From Gammaproteobacteria bacterium (GTDB lineage Bacteria; Pseudomonadota; Gammaproteobacteria; SURF-13), in NCBI GenBank assembly GCA_016195665.1, contig JACPZD010000022.1, positions 1 to 64,000 on the forward strand: a stretch of DNA of 64,000 nucleotides, written 5' to 3'. The notes under the pieces are model-generated. The model was not told where the DNA came from and did not search any database. It was given only the letters and a program-made list of their open reading frames with translations. The translations under genes and the position numbers were made by a program. Shown here piece after piece: positions 18,631-63,683 of this stretch. Position 1 is the first letter of the stretch; each line of letters opens with the position of its first letter.

Positions 18631-19122
18631 GTGCCTAAGAGGGATTTACAACTCGAGCAGTTGATAGAGCCCGCGGTGCGGGCTTTAGGCTTTGAGCTGG
18701 TGGGCGTGGAGTATATGCCGCAGGGCCGGCACTCGCTGCTGCGGATATATATAGACAGCCCGCACGGCATCGGCCTGGAGGATTGCGAAAAGGTCAGCCA
18801 CCAGGTGAGCGGGGTGCTGGATGTGGAGGACCCGATTCATGGTCATTACGACCTGGAGGTGTCCTCGCCGGGGCTGGACCGGCCGCTGTTCAGTCCCGAG
18901 CATTTTGTGAAGTACGCGGGCAGTACGGTAAAGATCCGGCTGCAAACGCCGATCGCCGGCCAGCGTAACTTTACAGGCGTGTTGCAAGGTATGCGCGGTA
19001 CGGATGTGGTGATTGTTGAAAATGGCGTGGAACGTGTATTGCCCCACGCCGCTATTGCCAAGGCGCATGTGGCGCCTGAATTTAAAACTAGGGAAAAGAT
19101 ACAAGAGAAAAGATACAAGTGA
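18631..19122 (+). CDS. rimP: Ribosome maturation factor RimP
   Basis: The 163-residue protein assists 30S assembly. It shows LEQLIEPAVRALGFELVGVE, LLRIYIDSPHGIGLEDCEKV and YDLEVSSPGLDRPL, all RimP landmarks. GTG at 18631 is the only good start, after TTGGTGGA. The last ten residues ([10 protein letters not shown]) are encoded by the left arm of a heptamer repeat, making the protein longer than the usual 150 or so. It is the first protein gene of the nusA operon. Confidence 0.95.
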   Translation: MPKRDLQLEQLIEPAVRALGFELVGVEYMPQGRHSLLRIYIDSPHGIGLEDCEKVSHQVSGVLDVEDPIHGHYDLEVSSPGLDRPLFSPEHFVKYAGSTVKIRLQTPIAGQRNFTGVLQGMRGTDVVIVENGVERVLPHAAIAKAHVAPEFKTREKIQEKRYK

Positions 19123-19198
19123 ATCAAGCTGATGGAGCAGTAATTCAGCTTTTGCTTTACTTGTATCTTGTATCTTGTACCTTTCCCCTTGTATCTGT
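19091..19198. repeat. Heptamer inverted repeat, copy 2 (rimP/nusA gap)
   Basis: The left arm GGGAAAAGATACAAG and GAAAAGATACAAG overlaps the end of rimP. The right arm (19160-19197) contains three TTGTATC-type units and one TTGTACC variant. The spacer has an inner stem AAGCTGA/TCAGCTT. The element ends 17 bases before the nusA ATG; here a separate ribosome site (AAGGTG) follows the repeat. Confidence 0.93.
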
Positions 19199-19214
19199 CT
19201 TTATAAGGTGATGT

Positions 19215-20737: not shown

Positions 20738-23230
20738 ATGCCTGATGTCACTGTAAAACAATTCGCCGATGTCGTCGGCATCCCGGTTGAGCACCTGCTC
20801 ACCCAACTGGGTGAAGCGGGCCTGACCGTCAAGAGCGCCGACGAGACGATCAATGACAACGAGAAGCTCAAGTTGCTGAGTTATCTGCGCCGCAGTCATG
20901 GCGAGGGCGACACCCTGGGCGCGACCGAGCCGCGCAAGATCACCCTCAAGCGCAAGACGGTCAGCGCCTTGAAGCAGACCGGTGCGCAAGGCAAGACGGC
21001 TAAATTGGTGAACGTGGAGGTGCGCAAGAAGCGCACCTATGTCAAGCGCAGCGTCGTGCTGGCCGAGGAACAGGAACGCGCCGAGCAACTGAGCGTGGAG
21101 CGCGAAGCCGTCGAGCAAGAGGGCGTCAAGCTCAAACAGGAACAAGAGGAAAAATTACGGGCCGAGGCTGCCCGGATCGAGGAGGAGACGCGGCTCAAGG
21201 CCGAGCAGGAGGCCAAGCTCAAGGCGGAACAGCAAGAGAGGCCTAAGAAAGAGTCTCCCGGCGCCGCTGCGGCAAAGGAATCCGCCAAGCCCGCCCCCGA
21301 GGCCGAGAAGAAACCCAAATGGCGCGCCGACAAGGGCGAGCGGGATACCAAATACGGCCGCGAGGAATTACACGTCGCGACCGACATGGCGAGCCGCCGC
21401 AAAAAGAAAACCAAGTTCCGGGGCGCCGCCGTCGCGTCGCCGACCCGTCACGGCTTTGAGAGACCCACTGCGCCCATCGTGCGCGAGGTAGGCATCCCCG
21501 AGACTATCACCGTGGCGGAGTTGGCGCAGCGGATGTCGGTCAAGGCGGCCGAGGTCATCAAGGTCATGATGAAGATGGGCAGCATGGTGACCATCAACCA
21601 GGTGCTGGATCAGGACACCGCCGCGGTCGTGGTCGAAGAAATGGGACATACCCCCAAACTGCTGAAGGAAAACGCCCTGGAGATGGATCTGGGCCTGACA
21701 GGAGAGATCAGCGGAGAGAGAATTTCCCGCGCCCCGGTGGTCACCATCATGGGACACGTGGATCACGGTAAGACCTCGCTGCTGGACTATATCCGCCGCA
21801 CCAAGGTGGCGACCGGCGAGGCGGGCGGTATCACCCAGCACATCGGCGCCTACCACGTGGAGACGCCGAAAGGCATGATCACCTTCCTCGATACGCCGGG
21901 CCACGCCGCGTTCACCGCCATGCGCGCGCGCGGCGCCAAGATCACCGACATTGTGGTGCTGGTGGTGGCTGCCGATGACGGCGTGATGCCGCAGACCATC
22001 GAGGCCATTCAACACGCCAAGGCCGCCAACGTCCCGATCGTAGTCGCGGTCAACAAGATAGACAAGCCCGAGGCCGATCCGGATCGCGTCAAGCAAGAAT
22101 TGGTCAAACAGGAGGTCGTGCCCGATGATTGGGGCGGCGATACGATCTTCGCCAGCGTCTCGGCCAAGACCGGCGCGGGCGTGGATGCCTTACTCGATTC
22201 CATTCTGGTGCAGGCCGAGGTGTTGGAACTGGCCGCCGTCAAAGACTGCCTCGCCTCCGGCGTGGTGATCGAGTCCAGCCTCGACAAAGGCCGTGGGCCG
22301 GTCGCGACCGTGCTGGTTCAGAACGGCACCTTGCGCAAGGGCGACATCTTGTTGGCGGGTTCGGAATACGGCCGGGTGCGCGCATTGCTTGACGAAACCG
22401 GCAAATCGCTTACCGAAGCCACGCCCTCCATGCCGGTGATGGTGCTGGGACTGGCCGGCACGCCCAACGCCGGCGACGAAGTGGTGGTGGTCGCCGACGA
22501 GCGCAAGGCCCGCGAGATCGCCCTGTTCCGCCAGGGCAAGTTCCGCGACGTAAAACTCGCACGCCAGCAGTCGGCCACGCTCGAGGATGTCTTCTCGCGC
22601 ATGGAGGAAGGTAAGATCAGCACCCTCAACCTCCTCATCAAGGCCGACGTGCAGGGCTCGGTCGAGGCGCTCAGCGAGGCGTTGCAGAAGCTCTCTACCG
22701 ATGAGGTCAAGGTGCGCATCATCGCCAGCGGCGTGGGAGGAATCAACGAGTCGGACATCCACCTTGCAGTGGCCTCCGGCGCCATCGTGATCGGGTTTAA
22801 CACCCGCGCGGACGCCACCGCGCGCCGCCTGGTCGCCGAGGAAGGCGTGGACCTGCGCTACTACAGCGTCATTTACAACGTCATTGACGAGGTGCGCGCC
22901 GCCATGACCGGCATGCTCGCCCCCGAGTTCAAGGAACAGATCATCGGCCTGGCTGCCGTGCGCGACGTGTTCAAATCATCCAAGCTCGGTGCGATCGCCG
23001 GCTGCATCGTGGTGGAAGGCGCGGTGCGCCGCAACAACCCGATCCGGGTGCTGCGCGACAACGTGGTGGTGTATGAAGGCGAACTCGAGTCGCTGCGCCG
23101 CTTCAAGGACGATGTCAGCGAAGTGCGCGCCGGGACGGAGTGCGGTATAGGTGTGAAAAACTACAACGATGTGAAGGTCGGCGATCAGATCGAAGTGTAC
23201 GAGCGCGTGCAGGTGGTTCGTAAATTATAG
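20738..23230 (+). CDS. infB: Translation initiation factor IF-2
   Basis: IF-2 delivers fMet-tRNA to the 30S subunit and promotes 50S joining. The 830-residue protein has an IF2_N domain ([19 protein letters not shown]), a charged Glu/Lys/Ala coiled linker (about 110-200), a second IF2_N-like domain, then the GTPase with G1 [10 protein letters not shown]3 DTPGHAAF and G4 NKID, followed by domains II-IV. The TAG stop is directly followed by a heptamer repeat. It starts 20 bases after nusA. Confidence 0.97.
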
Positions 23231-23325
23231 GGGAAAGATACAAGATACAAGATACAAGAAAAACCAAATCATAACGCCAAAGAGAGGGGTTCTACTTGTA
23301 TCTTGTATCTTTCCTCTTGTATCTG
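23231..23325. repeat. Heptamer inverted repeat, copy 3 (infB/rbfA gap)
   Basis: Three GATACAA units begin right after the infB stop. The right arm (23295-23325) has TTGTATC, TTGTATC, a CTTTCCT variant and TTGTATC. Its last bases GTATCTGCCTCT abut the rbfA ATG with no separate ribosome site. The right end is nearly identical to the copy before hisS. Confidence 0.94.
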
Positions 23326-23330
23326 CCTCT

Positions 23331-23705
23331 ATGAAAGAATTCAACCGCACCCAACGCATGGGCGATCAGATACAGCGCGAGTTGGCGCAACTGATCCAGC
23401 AGCAGATCGCCGATCCGCGGCTGGGGATGGTCACTGTCTCCGCGGTGGAGGTATCGCGCGACCTGGCCCATGCCAAGGTGTTCATCTCGGTGCTGGACGA
23501 GCAGCATGACGCGCAGGCCAGTCTCGATGTGCTGAACAAGGCGGCGGGTTACCTGCGCCATGAACTCGCGAAGCGCACCAAGATGCGGGTCACGCCCCGG
23601 TTGCGTTTTGTCTACGACCCCACCTTGAAATACGGTTCCCGGCTCTCTACCCTGATTGATACCGCGGTCAGTGAAGACCGTACACATAAAACCAGCGATG
23701 AGTAA
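23331..23705 (+). CDS. rbfA: 30S ribosome-binding factor RbfA
   Basis: The 124-residue KH-fold protein (RTQRMGDQIQRELAQLIQQQ, DPRLGMVTVSAVEVSRDLAHAK as two pieces, VTPRLRFVYDPTLKYGSRL) assists 16S rRNA 5' processing and cold-adapted 30S assembly. ATG at 23331 follows the heptamer repeat immediately and no Shine-Dalgarno is visible in the preceding 15 bases. Its end overlaps truB by eight bases. Confidence 0.95.
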   Translation: MKEFNRTQRMGDQIQRELAQLIQQQIADPRLGMVTVSAVEVSRDLAHAKVFISVLDEQHDAQASLDVLNKAAGYLRHELAKRTKMRVTPRLRFVYDPTLKYGSRLSTLIDTAVSEDRTHKTSDE

Positions 23706-28433: not shown

Positions 28434-28737
28434 CAGACTGTTGGAAAACAGCCCGCTATTAGACCTATAAGGGAAAGCCAGGCGCTGAAAACTCCATGGG
28501 AGAGCAGCGAAGCTGCAAGCGGGTTTGCCATGGATGGCAAGTCCTGAACACCTAAGGAATCCCTGATTTATTCATGCTGAACCGCCAAGACGCCAAGGGC
28601 GCCATGATTTTTTCCCTACAATTCAAGCCTTTTTTCTTGGTGACCTTGGCGCCTTGGCGGTTGGCGATATATTTTTCAGAGCTTCCCTAAGCGTAGCAGG
28701 ACTGCGTAGCGCCATGATGGAATTATTCAGAGTTTCA
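28434..28737. other. Intergenic region made of small palindromes
   Basis: This 304-base gap between mscL and the exchanger holds a CTGTT/AACAG hairpin near 28438-28455, a TTGCCATGGATGGCAA palindrome at about 28525-28540, and a full 137-base repeat at 28554-28690. I see no reading frame worth calling. Confidence 0.8.
28554..28690. repeat. Intergenic repeat with AACCGCCAAGACGCC arms, copy 1
   Basis: Arms AACCGCCAAGACGCCAAGG and CTTGGCGCCTTGGCGGTT flank a T-rich spacer. Outer ends AAGGAATCCCTGAT and AGCTTCCCTAA also match the second copy at 53331-53470. The two copies align along their whole length with scattered differences. Confidence 0.92.
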
Positions 28738-33984: not shown

Positions 33985-35304
33985 CTACTTTTTTACTTCA
34001 AAAGCTGTTTTGAGCTTCTTCGGCACCGCCGTGTTCTTGAGGCGCACATACTGCGGCAGACCGTTTTTGTAAGGCGGATAGTCTTCGCCGGAGATGAGCG
34101 GCTCCAGGTAGACGCGGCACTTGTCGGTGATGCCGAAGCCGTCTGGCGTGATGAAGTCCTTGGGCATCATCTTTTCCACGTTGGCGACCTTGGCAAGCGA
34201 CGCCATGCCTACTTTCCACTTATAAGGTTTGCTGGAGACGCGCTCCACCGTGGGCATCACGGCATTGTGACCCTTGAGGGCAAATTCTACCGCTGCCTTG
34301 CCCACGGCATAGGCCTGCGCCACGTCGGTCTTGGAGGCGATATGGCGCGCGGCGCGTTGCAGATAATCCGCCACCGCCCAATGATACTTGAGTCCCAGCC
34401 CCTCTTTAATCATGTTAGCCACCACCGGCGCGACTCCGCCCAGTTGCGCGTGGCCGAAGGCGTCGCGCAGACCCTGATCCGACAGGAACTTGCCGTCCGC
34501 GCCCTTCACGCCCTCGGAGACTACCACCGAGCAATAGCCGAATTTTTTCACCAGCGCGTCTACCTTGGCGAGAAATTTTGTCTGAACGAAGGGGACCTCG
34601 GGGAATAGGATGACGATAGGGATTTCGCAGTCCTTGCTCGAGGCCAACCCCCCCGCCGCGGCGATCCAGCCTGCGTGGCGGCCCATCACCTCGACGACAA
34701 ATACCTTGGTCGAGGTCTTGGCCATGCTGGCCACGTCGAAGCTCGCCTCGCGGGTAGAGACGGCGATGTACTTGGCGACCGAGCCGAAGCCGGGGCAGCA
34801 GTCGGTGATAGGAAGGTCGTTGTCCACGGTCTTGGGCACATGGACCGCTTGCAGCGGATAACCCAGTTTCTCGGAGAGTTGCGAGACCTTGAGGCAGGTG
34901 TCGGCGGAGTCGCCGCCGCCGTTATAAAAGAAATAGCCGATGTTGTGCGCCTTGAAGACTTCGATGAGACGCTCATACTCGGCGGTCGCTCCCGGCGTCC
35001 TGCCTCCCGCGACACTAGTACTTCCGTGTACGTCGCGGCTTTGATCTAAACTCTTGAGTTTGAAGCGGCACGAGCCGAAGGCGCCGGAGGGGGTATGGCG
35101 CAGTGCGGCGATGGCCTTGGCGGATTCCTTGCCGGTGTCTATCAAGTCTTCGGTGAGCGCGCCGATAATACCGTTGCGCCCGGCATAGACCTTGCCGATC
35201 TTGTCCTTGTGTTTGCGCGCGGCCTCGATCACGCCGCAGGCGGAGGCGTTGATGACGGCGGTGACGCCGCCGGATTGAGCGTAAAAGGCATTCTTCTTTG
35301 GCAT
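33985..35304 (-). CDS. pfp: Pyrophosphate-dependent 6-phosphofructokinase
   Basis: The 439-residue enzyme interconverts fructose-6-phosphate plus PPi and fructose-1,6-bisphosphate. PPi use is indicated by Asp in GGGDS (129-133), at the place where ATP enzymes have Gly, and by Lys158 in PKTVDND. Other motifs are PGFGSVAKY and EVMGRHAGWIAAAGG. ATG at 35304 (MPKKNAFYAQSGG) is the family start. Residues about 91-107 (DVHGSTSVAGGRTPGAT) appear to be an insertion encoded by a dispersed palindrome. It forms an operon with hppA. Confidence 0.93.
   Translation of the reverse strand: MPKKNAFYAQSGGVTAVINASACGVIEAARKHKDKIGKVYAGRNGIIGALTEDLIDTGKESAKAIAALRHTPSGAFGSCRFKLKSLDQSRDVHGSTSVAGGRTPGATAEYERLIEVFKAHNIGYFFYNGGGDSADTCLKVSQLSEKLGYPLQAVHVPKTVDNDLPITDCCPGFGSVAKYIAVSTREASFDVASMAKTSTKVFVVEVMGRHAGWIAAAGGLASSKDCEIPIVILFPEVPFVQTKFLAKVDALVKKFGYCSVVVSEGVKGADGKFLSDQGLRDAFGHAQLGGVAPVVANMIKEGLGLKYHWAVADYLQRAARHIASKTDVAQAYAVGKAAVEFALKGHNAVMPTVERVSSKPYKWKVGMASLAKVANVEKMMPKDFITPDGFGITDKCRVYLEPLISGEDYPPYKNGLPQYVRLKNTAVPKKLKTAFEVKK
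34984..35038. repeat. Palindromic repeat inserted in frame inside pfp
   Basis: On the minus strand the bases CGACGTACACGGAAGTACTA, then GTGTCGCG, then GGAGGCAGGACGCCGGGAGC match the intergenic repeats at 35375-35429 and 55982-56030. The coding frame is kept and adds about 17 residues between KSLDQSR and AEYERLIEV. Confidence 0.88.
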
Positions 35305-35786
35305 AGAGGTTCTCAACTTAAGGTCAACAAAAAGATGTTTGGATATTCGCGCTCGGGGTCGCTCTTACGCATCCTGTGACGTACAGGGACGTACTAATGT
35401 CGCGGTAGGCAGGATGCCGGGAGCGACCGTCCGCGACATTCGCAGAACCCTTCGCTGTCGCTCTTCCCTGTGCAGCATAAGCAGGCATACTAACGGGTAG
35501 TCACTTTGCATTGCAGACGCTCCGTGTGCGGCGAGCTGTTTTTTGATCTTTTAACTCCCTACTCTGGACGAAATGTCATCGGATACGGTTAAATATCCGG
35601 CTTATAAATTTGCCCAAGGATACTCTAGATTGAAAATTTTTTCACGGAGTTCGTTGACTTCTATATGAATCTAAGAGTAGCTTAGCGCGTGCCGTGGATG
35701 AAGGCTATGAATAACAGCTCATAATTACCCGCAGGAGAAGGTGAACTGAGATCAAAAATGACCACTGCAAGAAAGGGGAAGGCCTT
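35305..35786. other. Long intergenic region between pfp and adk
   Basis: This 482-base divergent gap includes one palindromic repeat (35349-35430). The rest (35431-35786) shows no credible frame and becomes AT rich towards adk (35580-35700), where promoters for adk are likely. I cannot point to a convincing -35/-10 pair. Confidence 0.7.
35349..35430. repeat. Palindromic repeat, intergenic copy next to pfp
   Basis: The outer arms GCTCGGGGTCGCTC and GAGCGACC, and ACGCATCCTG against CAGGATGCC, fold around the core GACGTACAGGGACGTACTAA. The core and right arm match the copy inside pfp only about 340 bases away and the copy before iscR. Confidence 0.88.
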
Positions 35787-37067: not shown

Positions 37068-38204
<1,137 letters not shown>

Positions 38205-39329
38205 ATGTCACACAGACAACAACTCGGAAAATCGCGCCGCTGGGTCATCAAGATCGGCAGCGCACTGCTGACCGCCGATGGGCGCGGTCTCGACACCGTC
38301 GCTATCAGAGGCTGGGTGGAGCAGATGGTACGGCTGCGCGAGCGCGGTACGGAGTTGGTGCTGGTCTCCTCCGGCGCGGTGGCCGAGGGCATGAAACGCC
38401 TCGGCTGGACGAAACGCCCCGTCGCTCTGCATGACCTTCAGGCCGCCGCGGCGGTCGGGCAGATGGGCCTGGTGCAGGCGTACGAGTCACACTTTCAGAC
38501 CCACGCCATCCACACCGCGCAAATCCTGCTGACGCACGAGGATCTTTCCAACCGTAACCGCTATCTCAATGCGCGCAGCACGCTGCATACCCTGATTAAG
38601 CTCGGCGTCATCCCGGTCATCAACGAAAACGACACGGTCGCCACCGACGAGATCCGCCTGGGCGACAACGACAACCTGGCGGCCCTGGTCGCCAATCTGG
38701 TCGAGGCCGAATTGCTGGTCATCCTCACCGACCAGGCCGGTATGTACGAGAGCGACCCGCGCCAAAATCCGGACGCCAAATTGATTCATGAAGCGCCCGC
38801 CGGCGATCCTCAATTGGAGATCATGGCGGGCGGCGCCTCCGGGGCATTTGGCCGCGGCGGCATGCTCACCAAGATCCAGGCCGCCGCCCGCGCCGCCCGC
38901 TCCGGGTGCGCAACCCTGATCGCATCCGGGCGAGAGCCGGAGGTGCTGGTGCGCATCGCGCAAGCCGAACAGCTCGGGACCTTGCTGCTGCCTGCTCAGG
39001 AGCCGATGGCGGCGCGCAAGCAGTGGCTGTCCGCTCAGTTACAGGTGCGCGGACGTTTGACCCTCGACGCCGGCGCCGTTAAGGTATTGCGCGAAGCGGG
39101 TAAAAGCTTGTTGTCGGTTGGCGTGACGGCGGTGGAGGGCGACTTTGTGCGCGGCGAAGTGGTGGCGTGTATGAGCACCGAAGGCAAAGAGATCGCGCGC
39201 GGCTTGGTGAATTACAGCGCCGACGAGGCGCGCAAAATCATGCGTCAGCCGAGTGACAGGATTGAAGATCTGCTAGGCTATGTGGATGAGCCGGAGTTGA
39301 TCCATCGGGATAATTTGGTGTTGGTTTAA
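38205..39329 (+). CDS. proB: Glutamate 5-kinase ProB
   Basis: ProB phosphorylates glutamate in the first step of proline synthesis. The 374-residue protein has an amino-acid-kinase domain ([51 protein letters not shown] as two runs) and a C-terminal PUA domain ([11 protein letters not shown]). ATG at 38205 gives the canonical length; the longer frame reads through the repeat ([13 protein letters not shown]) and is rejected. No Shine-Dalgarno is seen in the repeat-derived leader. obgE-proB order is common. Confidence 0.95.
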
Positions 39330-43370: not shown

Positions 43371-43998
43371 AAGGGGACGCTACCCTTTATTCTTGGCCGC
43401 CATAATGATAAATTCTGCTTATGCCCCGCCTTGCCCGCACTGAAGGGGGATATTCTCGCGTATTGTCTGATGACCAACCACATACACTTCATCGCCGTAC
43501 CGTCTACCGAGGAGGGCCTGCAACAAGTACTTAAACCCTTACACATGCGCTATGCCCAGCGGATCAATCGTGAGCGCGGCTGGAAAGGGCATATATGGCA
43601 AGGACGGTATTTCTCTTCTGCCCTGGATGATGACTATCTTTGGGCGGCTATACGCTACGTGGAGCGTAACCCGATAAGAGCCAGAATGGTTCGGAAGGCG
43701 GAGAATTACCATTGGTCCAGCGCGGGCTGGCACTGCGGATTGAGACCAGACCCGTTACTGACGACAAAGCCGACGTGGCGCAGGCAGTTTGAAGGCATAG
43801 GCGACTGGTCAGCCTGGCTAGCCGAGGGTGACGAGCCGGAGAAGCTGGAAGTATTACGGCGTAACGTGGATAAAGGCCTGCCCTGCGATCAGAGAAGTTC
43901 ATCCAGAAACTTGAGAAATTGACGGGCAGAGCGTTACAGTACCGCCCACGCGGGCGACCGAGAAAAACGAATGATGAATAAGGGTAGCGTCCCCTTTT
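43369..43998. mobile_element. Remnant element with inverted ends around a REP-type transposase
   Basis: The ends AAAAGGGGACGCTACCC-TTTATTC (43369) and its inverted copy GAATAAGGGTAGCGTCCCC-TTTT (43976-43998) differ by one T. They bracket a broken Y1 transposase gene. Similar GGGGACGCTACCC ends are common beside REP-associated tyrosine transposases. The element lies across the 5' end of the lyase gene. Confidence 0.82.
43421..43922 (+). pseudogene. REP-associated tyrosine transposase (Y1/IS200-like), internally deleted
   Basis: The 43431-43922 frame keeps the HUH motif (LMTNHIHFIAVPSTEEGLQ), then KGHIWQGRYFSSALDDDYLW and the helix YVERNPIRARMV with the likely catalytic tyrosine. Just upstream ATGCCCCGCCTTGCCCGC encodes the usual start (MPRLAR) but in a different frame, and about 60 intervening residues are missing. 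The gene is thus a deletion derivative and should not transpose by itself. Confidence 0.82.
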
Positions 43999-53330: not shown

Positions 53331-53470
53331 AAGGAAATCCCTGATGTGTCATGTTGAACCGCCAAGACGCCGAGAACGCCAAGATTTTTCCTTACAATTC
53401 AATCCTTTTTTCTTGGTGACCTTGGCGTCTTGGCGGTTGGCGATATATTTCTCAGAGGTGCTTCCCTGAA
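53331..53470. repeat. Intergenic repeat with AACCGCCAAGACGCC arms, copy 2 (before recA)
   Basis: This is the second copy of the 28554-28690 repeat, with the same ends (AAGGAAATCCCTGAT, GCTTCCCTGAA) and inner arms AACCGCCAAGACGCC and TTGGCGTCTTGGCGGTT. It lies 30 bases upstream of the recA start, in its promoter region. Confidence 0.92.
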
Positions 53471-53501: not shown

Positions 53502-54299
53502 CTATTTTTCCAGCCCCGCGGTGAGATAGGGGTGAAGGGTCTTAAGGAGGGCCTTGTAGACCCTGGGACTGCCTCCCACGATATTGCCGGTAGTCAAAAA
53601 ATCCTGTCCGCCGCCGAAGTCTCCCACCATACCGCCCGCCTCTGTGATGAGCAAGGCGCCCGCCGCCATATCCCAGGGCGCGAGGCCGATCTCCCAAAAA
53701 CCGTCCAGACGGCCCGCCGCCACATAGGCGAGATCGAGCGCCGCGGAACCGGCGCGGCGGATGCCGGCGGTGAGCAGCGTGAGTTCCTTGAACATGTGCA
53801 GATAGGCGTCCAGGTGTTCGGTTTTGCGAAAAGGGAAACCGGTGCCGAGCAGTGTGCCGTCCAATGTCTTAGCCTTGGTCACGCGGAGGCGGCGATCGTT
53901 GAGTTGCGCCCCGGCGCCCCGGCTGGCGGTGTATAACTCCTGACGCAGGGGATCGTAGACCACCGCGTGCTCAAGCTCGCCTTTATGCTGCACGGCGATG
54001 GACACGGCGAACTGCGGAAAGCCGTGCAGAAAGTTGGTGGTGCCGTCCAGCGGATCAATGATCCACTGGTAGTCGTCGCCCGCATGGGCGCCGCTCTCTT
54101 CGGCCAAAATGGCGTGGCTGGGATAGGCCTTGCGGATGACCTTGACGATATCCTGCTCGGCGAGCAGGTCCACCTCGCTCACGTAATCGTTTTTGCCCTT
54201 CAGCGAGACTCCATAGCTGTCCAGCCGTTCGGCGGCGCGCGCGATAGTGTTGCCGGCGGTGCGGGCGGCGCGTACCGCGATATTGAGCAGGGGGTGCAT
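53502..54299 (-). CDS. suhB: Inositol-1-monophosphatase SuhB
   Basis: The 265-residue Mg-dependent phosphatase has the motifs DPLDGTTNFLHGFPQFAVS and WDMAAGALLITEAGG plus EESGAHAG. SuhB in E. coli also acts in rRNA antitermination complexes with NusA. ATG at 54299 (MHPLLNIAVRAARTAGN) is canonical; the longer frame starts in the heptamer repeat. It is divergent from trmJ, as in E. coli, and upstream of recA on the same strand. Confidence 0.95.
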   Translation of the reverse strand: MHPLLNIAVRAARTAGNTIARAAERLDSYGVSLKGKNDYVSEVDLLAEQDIVKVIRKAYPSHAILAEESGAHAGDDYQWIIDPLDGTTNFLHGFPQFAVSIAVQHKGELEHAVVYDPLRQELYTASRGAGAQLNDRRLRVTKAKTLDGTLLGTGFPFRKTEHLDAYLHMFKELTLLTAGIRRAGSAALDLAYVAAGRLDGFWEIGLAPWDMAAGALLITEAGGMVGDFGGGQDFLTTGNIVGGSPRVYKALLKTLHPYLTAGLEK

Positions 54300-54305
54300 A
54301 AATTC

Positions 54306-54425
54306 AGAGAAAAGATACAAGATACAAGAGAAAAGGGGAAAAATACAGGCCGCAGACCAAATGAGGTGCTTTGCATGCGCCTTTTCCCTTTCCCCTTGTA
54401 TCTTTTCTCTTGTATCTTGTATCTG
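54306..54425. repeat. Heptamer inverted repeat, copy 5 (suhB/trmJ divergent gap)
   Basis: The left arm has GAAAAGATACAAGATACAAG, then GAAAAGGGG units; the right arm (54380-54425) has CCTTTTCCCTTTCCCC, TTGTATC, TTTTCTC, TTGTATC, TTGTATC. Each arm points its TTGTATC strand at a start codon, for suhB on the minus and trmJ on the plus strand. The trmJ GTG is inside the repeat end. Confidence 0.93.
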
Positions 54426-55162
54426 TGTCTCTCTCCAATATCCGCATCGTCCTGGTAAACACCAGCCATCCCGGCAACATCGGCGCCTGCGCGCGCGCCA
54501 TGAAGACCATGAATCTGTCCGGCCTCAACCTGGTGCAACCGAAGGTCTTCCCCAGCGCCGAAGCCACCGCGCGGGCCTCCGGTGCGGACGACGTCTTGGC
54601 TGGGGCGCAGGTCTTTGAGACGCTGGACGCGGCGCTGGCCGGCTGCGTCCTGGTGATCGGCGCCAGCGCCAGGCAGCGTACCATTGCCTGGCCGGAGCTG
54701 ACACCGCGCGAATGTGCACGGCAGGTGATCGCACAGTGCGCCCGCGCGCCCGTCGCGCTGGTGTTCGGGCGGGAACATTCCGGTCTTACCAATAGCGAGC
54801 TGGAGCGCTGCAACGCCCTGGTGCGCATCCCGAGCAACCCGGATTTCAGTTCTCTCAATATCGCCGCCGCGGTGCAAATCCTGGCCTACGAAATTATGTT
54901 GACGAGTCTGGAGCCCACCCCGCACGCAATCAGTGACACGGAGGAAGAACCCGCCACCGCAGCGGAACTGGAGTTGCTTTATGCCCACATGCAGCAGGCC
55001 TTGACGGACATCGGCTTTCTCGACCCGGCCAACCCGCGCCAGTTGATGCGCCGGTTGCGGCGCTTATTCAATCGCCCTCAACTGGACAAGATCGAGGTTA
55101 ATATCTTGCGGGGCATATTGGCTGCCGCGCAGACCCAAAACAAACTGAGGCATGAGGAATAG
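54425..55162 (+). CDS. trmJ: tRNA (cytidine/uridine-32 2'-O)-methyltransferase TrmJ
   Basis: The SPOUT methyltransferase (245 residues) has NIRIVLVNTSHPGNIGACAR, ALVFGREHSGLTNSELERC and the knot region IPSNPDFSSLNIAAAVQIL. It modifies position 32 of several tRNAs. GTG at 54425 gives VSLSNIRIVLV, the family start; the frame from 54371 begins in repeat sequence. It is followed by cysE and the isc genes, the usual order. Confidence 0.93.
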   Translation: MSLSNIRIVLVNTSHPGNIGACARAMKTMNLSGLNLVQPKVFPSAEATARASGADDVLAGAQVFETLDAALAGCVLVIGASARQRTIAWPELTPRECARQVIAQCARAPVALVFGREHSGLTNSELERCNALVRIPSNPDFSSLNIAAAVQILAYEIMLTSLEPTPHAISDTEEEPATAAELELLYAHMQQALTDIGFLDPANPRQLMRRLRRLFNRPQLDKIEVNILRGILAAAQTQNKLRHEE

Positions 55163-55199: not shown

Positions 55200-55982
55200 A
55201 TGTTTGAGCGTCTGAAAGAAGACATCCGCTGCACCTTTGAACGCGACCCGGCGGCGCGCACTACCTGGGAGGTGTTGACCACTTACCCCGGGCTGCACGC
55301 GGTGCTGTGGCACCGGCTGACCCACCGTTTGTGGCGCGCGAACTGGAAGTGGCTGGCGCGCTGGCTGTCCACCGTGGCGCGCTGGTTCACCGGCGTGGAG
55401 ATTCATCCCGGCGCGACTATTGGCCGGCGCTTCTTTATAGACCACGGCATGGGTGTGGTGATCGGCGAGACCGCCGAGATCGGCGACGACTGCACGCTGT
55501 ATCACGGCGTGACCCTGGGCGGCACCACCTGGCGCAGGGGAAAACGGCATCCCACCCTGGGCAGCAATGTCGTGGTCGGCGCGGGCGCCAAGGTATTGGG
55601 TCCGATCACGGTGGGGGAGGGCGCGCGCATCGGCTCCAATGCGGTGGTGGTCAAAGACGTCCCCTCCGGCGCGACGGTGGTAGGTATCCCGGGGCATATC
55701 GTCAAGCGCGCCAGCGACGAAGAGATGCTACGGCGCAAGGATTTCGCCAAGAAAATCGGTTTCGAGGCCTACGGCGGCGCCCAGGACATGCCCGATCCGG
55801 TGGCCAACGCCATTGATACGCTGCTCGATCATGTGCACGTGATGGATAAGCAGATCGAGGCGATGAACCGGGCGCTGCGCCAGTTAGGCGCGCAGATCGA
55901 GGAGGTCAAGCTGCCGGACGTGGAAATGTCTGACATGCAAACGGATAAGGACAAGCCCCTGACCACCCCCATCGAATTGTGA
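55200..55982 (+). CDS. cysE: Serine O-acetyltransferase CysE
   Basis: CysE makes O-acetylserine for cysteine synthesis. The 260-residue protein has an N-terminal helical part ([19 protein letters not shown]), a left-handed beta-helix of hexapeptide repeats ([39 protein letters not shown]) with the catalytic His in [10 protein letters not shown], and a C-terminal helix. Placed before iscR-iscS, it could supply cysteine for Fe-S assembly, as in Azotobacter-type clusters. Confidence 0.95.
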
Positions 55983-56054
55983 CGTACATGGATGTACTAA
56001 TGTCGCGAGAGGCAGGAAGCCGGGAGCGGCTAGGGCCGAATTCATTCGGCCGAA
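55980..56054. repeat. Two palindromes between cysE and iscR
   Basis: GACGTACATGGATGTACTAA then TGTCGCG and GGCAGGAAGCCGGGAGCGG (55981-56030) belongs to the family found inside pfp. GGGCCGAATTCATTCGGCC (56033-56051) belongs to the GGCCGAAT family. The first directly follows, and its first base overlaps, the cysE stop codon. Confidence 0.88.
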
Positions 56055-61191: not shown

Positions 61192-62325
61192 ATGCAACAC
61201 AACACCCCCATCACTCGCCGCAAGTCACGCCGGATCATGGTGGGCAATGTCGCCATCGGCGGCGACGCGCCCATCACGGTGCAGAGCATGACCAACACCG
61301 ACACCTGCGACGTGGCGGCGACGGTCGCGCAGATCCGCGCCCTGGAAAACGTCGGCGCCGACATCGTGCGCGTCTCCACCCCGAGCATGGAGGCGGCCGA
61401 GGCCTTCGGCCTTATCAAAAAACAGGTCAACGTGCCGCTCGTCGCGGACATCCACTTCGATTACAAGATCGCACTGCGCGTCGCCGAACTTGGCGCGGAT
61501 TGCCTGCGCATCAATCCCGGCAACATCGGCCGCGAAGACCGCGTGCGGGCGGTGGTGGAATCGGCGCGTGAGCACAACATCCCCATCCGGGTGGGCGTGA
61601 ACGCGGGGTCGCTCGAAAAGGACTTGCAGAAAAAATACGGCGAGCCCACGCCGGAAGCCATGGTCGAGTCGGCGCTGCGTCACGTGGAAATCCTGGAGCG
61701 GCTCAACTTCAAGGACTTCAAGGTCAGCATCAAGGCCTCCGACGTATTCATGACCGTAGAGGCCTACCGGCTGCTCGCAAAACAGATTGAACAACCGCTG
61801 CACCTCGGTATCACCGAGGCGGGCGGTCTCCGCGCCGGCGCCGTGAAGTCCGCGATCGGTCTCGGCATGCTGCTCGCCGAAGGCATCGGCGACACGATCC
61901 GCATCTCGCTCGCCGCCGATCCGGTGGAAGAAATCAAAGTGGGTTTTGATATCCTGAAGAGCCTGCACCTGCGCAACAAGGGCATTAATCTCATCGCCTG
62001 CCCCTCGTGTTCACGTCAGGAGTTCGACGTCATTAAAGCGGTAAATGAACTGGAGGCGCGTCTGGAAGATATACTGGAGCCGATGGATGTCGCGGTGATC
62101 GGCTGCGTGGTTAACGGTCCCGGCGAGGCGCGTGAGGCGCACATCGGTCTGGCCGGCGGTTCACCCAATCTGTTATACGTGGATGGAAAGCCCGACCATA
62201 AGGTGAGCAACGAGCACCTGGTGGATGAGCTGGAAAAAACCATTCGCGCCAAAATTAAATTGCGTCAGGAACTCGGCCAGCTGGAACATCAAAGTCCCGT
62301 GATACCTATTACTAAAGTCAGATAA
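61192..62325 (+). CDS. ispG: 4-hydroxy-3-methylbut-2-enyl diphosphate synthase IspG
   Basis: IspG is the Fe-S enzyme of the next-to-last MEP isoprenoid step. The 377-residue protein opens [20 protein letters not shown] and has cluster cysteines in [13 protein letters not shown] and [14 protein letters not shown] at 61192 fits family length; the longer frame is in rodZ. The TAA stop lies in the start of a heptamer repeat. Confidence 0.96.
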
Positions 62326-62409
62326 AAGATACAAGATACAAGTAGAACCCTGTTCCTCGGTGCTATGATTCAGGTTTTCTTGTATCTTGTATCTTTCCTC
62401 TTGTATCTA
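62321..62409. repeat. Heptamer inverted repeat, copy 6 (ispG/hisS gap)
   Basis: Left arm GATAAAAGATACAAG plus ATACAAG follows the ispG end; right arm (62379-62409) has TTGTATC, TTGTATC, TTTCCTC, TTGTATC, then TACCTCT before the hisS ATG. Spacer arms AGAACCCTG and CAGGTTTTCT are partly complementary. Confidence 0.94.
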
Positions 62410-62414
62410 CCTCT

Positions 62415-63683
62415 ATGAAATCCATCCAAGCCGTGCGCGGCATGAACGACATCCTGCCGGGTGAGACCCCCTGCTGGCAGCATCTCGAAGAGACGGCGCG
62501 CACGCTGCTCGCGGGCTATGGCTATGAAGAGATCCGGCTGCCACTGGTCGAGCAGACCGAGCTCTTCGCCCGCTCCATCGGCGAGGTCACCGACATTGTC
62601 GAAAAGGAGATGTATACCTTTGAAGACCGCAACGGCGACAGTCTTTCCCTACGCCCCGAAGGCACGGCGAGCTGCGCGCGCGCCGCGATAGAACACGGGC
62701 TGCTGCACAACCAGACCCAGCGCCTCTGGTATAGCGGGCCGATGTTCCGCCATGAGCGCCCCCAGAAGGGCCGTTATCGCCAGTTCCATCAGATCGGCGT
62801 CGAGGTGTTCGGTTTCAACGGCCCGGACATAGACGCGGAAATGATACTCATGACGGCGCGATTATGGCGCAAGCTGGGTCTTGAGAATTTGCTGTTGCAA
62901 ATCAATTCCCTCGGCACCGCCGACGCGCGGGCGGTTTACCGCAGCCATCTTACGAGTTATCTCGAAGGCCATCTTGATCAGCTCGATGAGGACAGCCGCA
63001 GGCGCCTCTCAACCAATCCTCTGCGCATCCTCGACAGCAAGAATCCCGCGCTGCAAACGCTTATCGCCGGCGCGCCGCAGCTTGCCGATCATCTCGATGA
63101 GGAATCGCGGTCGCATTTTGAACGGCTTAAGGACCATCTCGACGCCGCGGGCCTGAGCTATCAGGTCAATCCCCGCCTGGTGCGTGGCCTGGATTATTAC
63201 GCCAAGACGGTGTTCGAGTGGACCACCGATCAGTTGGGCGCGCAGGGCGCCGTGTGCGCGGGCGGGCGTTATGACAGGCTGGTCGAACAGATCGGCGGCA
63301 AACCCACACCGGCGATCGGCTTCGCCATGGGCATAGAACGCTTGGTGGCGCTGCTTACCGAAAACTCGCTAACACCGCCCAGACAATCTCCACATGCTTA
63401 TTTTGTGTTAGTCGGCGACCAGGCCGAGCGCCGTGGTCTGGTGCTTGCGGAGCAACTGCGCGACGCATTGCCGGGACTGCGGCTGGTGATGAACTCCGGC
63501 GGCGGTAATTTCAAGAATCAGCTCAAGCGTGCCGACAAGAGCGGCGCCGACCATGCCCTGATACTCGGCGACGATGAATGCACCCAGTCTGAAATCAGCA
63601 TTAAGCACCTTCGTCTCGATATCGCCCAGCGCCGCATCCCGCAGTCAGATTTGGCTGACTTCCTTTCTAAATACTTTAGTTAG
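62415..63683 (+). CDS. hisS: Histidyl-tRNA synthetase
   Basis: The 422-residue class II enzyme has [20 protein letters not shown], motif 2 ([20 protein letters not shown]), the His-specific [15 protein letters not shown] and [18 protein letters not shown], and a C-terminal anticodon-binding domain. ATG at 62415 follows repeat sequence without a clear ribosome site. The usual downstream genes (yfgM, bamB, der) are absent; a response regulator comes next. Confidence 0.97.

Follow-up and report, generated by a model that had tools for sequence, protein, structure and literature searches.

A mobile two-hairpin element of 51 bp inserted in frame in pfp and in many other genes of a gammaproteobacterium

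The pyrophosphate-type phosphofructokinase gene (pfp) of a gammaproteobacterium contains, in frame, a 51-bp copy of a mobile palindromic element that is dispersed through the genome in about 100 copies. We analysed this gene in a 64-kb window, the whole stretch of DNA under study, together with the remaining copies of the element in its own genome and in other species. Our data support that the element invaded pfp in frame and that the gene has kept the insert. We are highly confident in one explanation as a whole, in which a mobile element inserts in frame, unsuitable registers are filtered out and the remaining inserts would survive neutrally.

The insert in pfp and the repeat family

The host gene lies at 33985-35304 on the minus strand and was assigned by Pfam (PFK, 9e-45) and by two solved structures of PPi-dependent phosphofructokinases, PDB 3hno and 3k2q. 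The element within it (CGACGTACACGGAAGTACTAGTGTCGCGGGAGGCAGGACGCCGGGAGCGAC) occupies 34985-35035, also on the minus strand, with ends set by a match to our covariance model R1, by the sequence and by the empty site in relatives. It stands in the register that we call same1 and encodes DVHGSTSVAGGRTPGAT, exactly 17 extra residues (91-107 of the protein starting at 35304), where a preliminary description of this DNA had estimated about 17. That description gave the repeat as 55 bases, with matches at 35375-35429 and 55982-56030. The repeat is real and both matches exist, but the exact unit is 51 bp, the longer version including a few flanking bases, and the matches run from 35377 to 35427 and from 55980 to 56030, both on the plus strand by sequence. 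The latter copy is intergenic. The former lies upstream of pfp and appears nested in a diverged copy of a 69-bp class, whose remnants span 35357-35478 (GGTCGCTC...CATCCTG, the insert, CGTCCGCGACATT...AGAACCCTTCGCTGTCGCTCTTCCCTGTGC), with approximate limits read by eye against that class.

We then compared PFP with its homologues. The 17 residues were missing from 29 of 29 aligned homologues, which bears out the earlier statement that family members lack them and leaves the window's protein as the sole carrier among 30. Two genomes of the same family, G005 (94% identity) and G003 (91%), have PFP without the insert, and their codons reveal the empty site: CGG or CGT followed directly by GCC, compared with CGC, 51 bp and GCC, in register, in the window. 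With the residues missing from homologues and some 100 copies lying elsewhere, 58 of the 97 tested ones in genes, the insert is neither a coincidence nor a repeat derived from the gene, as it could have been if all homologues had carried the same residues. The fold of the window's PFP resembles 3hno and 3k2q (TM-score 0.83-0.85 by query length); these closest solved structures match the profile across the insert site, with a gapless printed alignment for 3hno. When the insert was mapped on an AlphaFold model, it was predicted to form a loop of low confidence, with pLDDT below 50 for residues 87-105, within a mostly confident flanking fold.

The family was searched with a 34-base core pattern, allowing up to three mismatches and using the reversed pattern as control. 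We found 97 matches in the 2.38-Mb genome (52 forward, 45 reverse) and none for the control, so that a chance origin of the family is excluded. A looser scan, confined to the fetched stretches around copies, gave 104 matches, and five genomes of the same family had 6-38 core-pattern matches each. The copies fall into two length classes, one of 51 bp and one of 69 bp with a longer first hairpin, both multiples of three. Beyond this family, the exact core pattern was present in over 100 contigs from named species, the majority Gammaproteobacteria: Sedimenticola, Methylomonas koyamae, Halomonas, Pseudomonas, Thiohalophilus, symbionts of Solemya and Lamellibrachia, Rhodanobacter-type MAGs, where it forms tandem 51-bp arrays, and also Nitrosomonas eutropha. 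Model R1 detected the element in 55 of the 274 genomes sampled from the class and in 8 of the 299 from the phylum. Plasmids gave one match, a diverged variant inside an annotated Lonsdalea DNA primase CDS on the strand opposite to the gene; no match was found in phages or in E. coli genomes.

The family appears to be undescribed in Rfam and in the open literature, and it is possible that an account under another name exists in a subscription journal. The Rfam scan of the region gave one chance match only (E 8.1). The string GTCGCGGGAGGCAGGA was not found in the open-access literature, the coverage of which stops short of subscription journals, and of 22 papers containing one of four shorter fragments of the element, the ten listed had the 12-base fragment only and were on cell biology.

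Two further arrangements were observed. At six loci, 51-bp units stand in tandem, two or three to an array, and keep the frame of glycine-cleavage T-protein genes and of other hosts. A compound 102-bp form, in which one copy has entered another at a constant point, was found at four loci, which suggests movement of the whole as a unit or a hotspot at that point.

Ends and hairpins of the element

Nesting of one copy in another, seen several times, fixes the ends of the element: where it is clearest, the sequence of the outer copy is recovered without a single difference by taking out YGAC...GCGAC, a unit of 51 bp, and by no other choice. Nested copies have no target-site duplication. The flanks of genic and non-genic copies alike carry a weak preference for C at -4, T at -2 and C at +1.

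Across 65 distinct copies the structure (1:21), (5-8:15-18), (23-27:47-51) and (32-34:40-42) was paired in 98.9% of cells, compared with 18-47% for slid versions. Both sides had changed in 76 cells, against 19.7 in shuffles. The terminal pair 1:21 is CG in 41 and TA in 23 of these copies; in a set of 188, the counts were 128 CG, 59 TA and one other. This covariation, with the hairpin pairs, places both ends of the element at hairpin feet. We also considered the first base, Y1, as part of the target with R21 as its guide, and rejected this since nested copies restore the outer copy exactly only with Y1 inside the element; the Y1:R21 covariation is thus within the element. In most copies positions 2-5 are GACG, which is CGTC on the opposite strand; positions 3-4 vary (AC, CC, AT, AA, CT), and Y1 lies outside this motif.

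Because folding of single copies as RNA or DNA gave modest z-scores (-0.3 to -2.9), we argue for the structure from covariation. The copies from named species were picked by an exact second hairpin, so their covariation rests on the first one. Strong covariation of an RNA style, some G-U pairs and a second hairpin conserved across many species would also suit an element that is chiefly a functional RNA, such as a structured mRNA element, a processing site or a regulator, for which a location in genes would be incidental. However, folding of single-stranded DNA for transposition would likewise give covariation, copies occur within genes in both orientations (96 same, 30 anti) and at varied positions, their distribution among genomes is patchy (55 of 274 in the class sample) and Rfam has no match. 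We therefore regard a chiefly RNA function as unlikely.

Copies inside genes

To call a copy genic, we scored its flanks with a hexamer coding model, ignoring the interior of the element, and required coding in one phase on both sides; coding status rested on this model together with Pfam and orthologues. The model was trained on long ORFs that included the host genes, and several loci came from the same genomes, so that copies are not fully independent. By this measure 58 of 97 copies in the own genome (about 60%) and 68 of 124 in other species are genic. Since 51 and 69 are both multiples of three, insertion does not shift the frame.

The element can be read in six registers, four of them free of stops and two with an unavoidable stop. 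None of the 126 genic copies, from the own genome and other species, is in a stop register, although 24% were expected from non-genic flanks (109 isolated copies, P about 1e-13). The open registers were filled unequally, with 73 isolated copies in the register encoding DVQGRTNVAGGRTPGAT, 20 in a reverse-strand register (VAPGVLPPATLVRPCTS), and 10 and 6 in the other two, against expected shares of.252,.209,.119 and.181 (P 8e-13; P 0.0009 for the own genome alone). The Gly-rich, linker-like DVQGRTNVAGGRTPGAT register is thus commoner than the target preference predicts, and an explanation of the bias from target preference at codon position 3 only was rejected by the expectation from non-genic flanks. 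The lack of genic copies in stop registers and the excess of the Gly-rich register indicate that inserts in genes are very probably translated and that selection very probably filters the insertions. If genic copies were instead removed after transcription or bypassed in translation, leaving proteins of normal length, stop registers would be permitted, and 0 of 126 copies use them; we consider such removal extremely improbable, even though ends at hairpin feet would be suited to precise excision.

Next, we examined substitutions within the copies. In genic copies of the main register, differences from the consensus were spread evenly over codon positions (25/27/26). Nonsynonymous ones prevailed (52, against 23 synonymous), which was also the case in non-genic copies (32 against 6). 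These counts gave no sign of purifying selection on substitutions within genic copies and lent no support to a peptide under selection. The preliminary description had left it between an insert that is tolerated and one that has been put to use. The substitution counts and the low-pLDDT loop in PFP favour the former, and the simplest reading would be neutral tolerance after a strong initial filter, the peptide being presumably present in the protein.

A peptide that improves or regulates PFP and other hosts, and is kept by selection, could account for several observations: one Gly-rich register holds 73 of 109 isolated genic copies, the hosts are core enzymes, and the trpE insert is kept in two genera at 47/51 identity. 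Yet the differences are distributed as described above, the hosts are functionally unrelated, sites are rarely shared and the structural model shows the insert in PFP as a loop of low confidence. We find such a use very improbable, somewhat more so than an RNA function.

In the own genome, Pfam identified as hosts valyl-tRNA synthetase (two inserts), poly(A) polymerase (two), DnaG, enolase, UvrA, PriA, RecG, AddA-like and AddB-like proteins, DprA, the phosphoglycerate mutase iPGM (gpmI), TrpE, LysA, SucC, MnmE, an HflX-type GTPase, QueC, a dGTPase-like protein, Lnt, an oligopeptidase (two) and CsoS2 (several). We joined the flanks of 36 junctions and used them as queries against three same-family genomes; orthologues spanned most of the junctions. 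Orthologous sites were empty or differently looped for prlC (both), valS (both), gpmI, trpE, eno, uvrA, lysA, priA, queC, pcnB, manC and dgt. The gap was exact for valS, prlC, gpmI and trpE; in genes with a variable loop it was less sharp. Empty sites were thereby demonstrated for about ten host genes.

Sharing of an insert was rare. Among orthologues in the three relatives, only trpE (in G003) and prlC (in G005) carry it. The trpE insert is present in the own genome (G000) and G003, which belong to two genera, with 47 of 51 positions identical, and absent from G001 and G005. The prlC insert is present at the same codon in G000 and G005, again two genera (loci L079 and L243), and absent from G001 and G003. 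Its two copies are 50/51 identical between flanks of 71-82% identity, and the site is empty in G001, whose identity to G005 there is 90-94%. These sequences would be better explained by parallel insertion at one and the same codon, or by recombination, than by inheritance.

In other species, N6-methylases accounted for 10 of 59 host ORFs and class I tRNA synthetases for 7, mostly at different sites. The ten methylase genes are of HsdM type, and such genes could be carriers of the element between species. HsdM-type genes house the element in the culturable Nitrosomonas eutropha Nm57, Halomonas sp. JB37 and Methylomonas koyamae SM2. The valS gene has been struck repeatedly, at different sites and in different species, with five loci in other species and one in the own genome. 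Many own-genome hosts are genes for the replication or repair of DNA (dnaG, uvrA, priA, recG, addAB, dprA, dgt), which resembles what Di Nocera et al. reported for intragenic REPs. On contig C11 of the own genome (L067:2732-6136), an AAA-ATPase (CbbX-like) frame runs through one copy of the element into CsoS2 with five further copies, in one open frame of 1135 codons, and the element may have joined two carboxysome-related genes there.

Apart from scattered intragenic REPs, cases of mobile DNA turned into ordinary protein sequence have come mainly from Rickettsia, in numbers too small to measure selection well. Here, a single genome offers about 58 natural in-frame insertions of 17 or 23 residues in core proteins that have no relation to one another, and close relatives provide the empty orthologues. 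These insertions allow the tolerated sites and peptides and the turnover rate of inserts to be measured and are good material for finding the mobilising enzyme. They also carry a warning for annotation, since inserts foreign to the family may be present in PFP, ValRS, enolase, UvrA and comparable proteins of these lineages.

Movement and relation to known repeats

We propose that the element is a non-autonomous mobile palindromic unit of 51 or 69 bp, with two adjacent hairpins whose feet form its ends. It inserts without target duplication, favouring C(-4)..T(-2) upstream and C directly downstream, and never shifts the frame. Insertions in stop registers, and most in less tolerable registers, are purged, and those adding a flexible Gly-rich peptide in a surface loop would survive as neutral inserts. 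The mover may be a Y1 (HUH) transposase that acts in trans on the folded single strand, a route to which we give about even odds.

Insertion next to a short target without duplication, and hairpins at the ends, are HUH-like features. Of 15 genomes rich in the element, 14 had Y1_Tnp genes, compared with 8 of 17 genomes free of it (P 0.007, without correction for phylogeny or genome size). The own genome has nine Y1_Tnp loci, and by coordinates none of its Y1 transposase genes is found within 4 kb of any copy; for this lack of adjacency we rejected a RAYT neighbourhood there. Of ten Y1_Tnp loci inspected, only one (L233) has a copy, near the locus edge, and the element-bearing genomes G005 and G242 have no Y1_Tnp match above threshold. 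The absence of an adjacent transposase and these two genomes speak for another mover, which could be an RNA-mediated route, a DDE enzyme leaving no detectable duplication, or replication or repair slippage at hairpins; slippage could also make the tandem 51-bp arrays of Rhodanobacter-type contigs. Against it, the lack of duplication at a short target and the compact hairpins at both ends fit HUH chemistry, and there is the weak association with Y1_Tnp. We hold the chances of a non-Y1 mover to be evenly balanced.

The preliminary description likened the insert to Rickettsia palindromic elements (RPEs). RPEs are palindromic repeats of 105-146 bp with long stem-loops (Ogata et al. 2000, as reviewed in PMC2229807), of which the first survey listed 19 intragenic cases, and an RPE-bearing Gmk was still active in the tested case (PMC2229807). 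The likeness holds for the in-frame invasion of a gene and for an enzyme that keeps its insert: as with RPEs and the Wolbachia WPE, palindromic repeats lie both between genes and in frame in conserved protein genes, and homologues lack the insert. The element is nevertheless not an RPE, differing in length (51 or 69 bp), in architecture (two adjacent hairpins instead of one long stem-loop with terminal inverted repeats) and in hosts, which are free-living and symbiotic Gammaproteobacteria, with almost all matches in that class and 58 of 97 tested copies genic.

GTAG- and CGTC-tagged REPs are 20-40 bp long, with one stem of 5-13 bp, and mostly extragenic; intragenic ones have been noted in uvrA, recBCD and tRNA synthetase genes (Di Nocera et al. 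2013, PMC3733652), and a link of GTAG REPs to Y1 transposases (RAYTs) has been proposed (PMC3733652). Our element shares with REPs short hairpins and some genic copies. In contrast to REPs, it has two hairpins of 4 and 5+3 bp in 51 bp, is intragenic in the majority of copies (58/97, 68/124) and lacks the stem, loop and CCA tail of CGTC REPs. Most copies end in GACG, that is, CGTC on the other strand; this CGTC-like end varies between copies. Bacterial MITEs (ERIC/RU-1, NEMIS, Coxiella QMITE) are 70-400 bp long, with terminal inverted repeats and usually target duplications (PMC2229807, PMC5896051). Like them, the element is non-autonomous, structured and sometimes fused in frame to genes, but it has neither terminal inverted repeats nor a duplication, since each end pairs within its own hairpin and not with the other end. 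The element thus works like RPEs and intragenic REPs and belongs to neither as defined. Small dispersed repeats (SDR) of cyanobacteria are very small and hairpin-forming, insert without target duplication, nest in each other and show compensatory changes; their sequences and hosts differ.

We tentatively suggest, at less than even confidence, that this is a so far undescribed mobile element that crosses genera. With a length in multiples of three, registers free of stops and a main translation that resembles a linker, it would be suited to residing in essential genes, and it could enter orthologues of different genera independently at one and the same codon, as in prlC.

The window holds other repeats. 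Inverted pairs of AGATACAAG.../...CTTGTATCT, separated by a few tens of bp, form a distinct dispersed repeat at 2591-2703, 19082-19208, 23221-23336, 38069-38208, 54298-54436 and 62305-62420. A partial Y1_Tnp (REP-type transposase) match lies at 43446-43670 on the plus strand (E 7e-10). A direct repeat of 73 bp (CTTGGTGACCTTGGCG...TTGGCGATATAT), 95% identical, occurs at 28609-28681 and 53385-53457.
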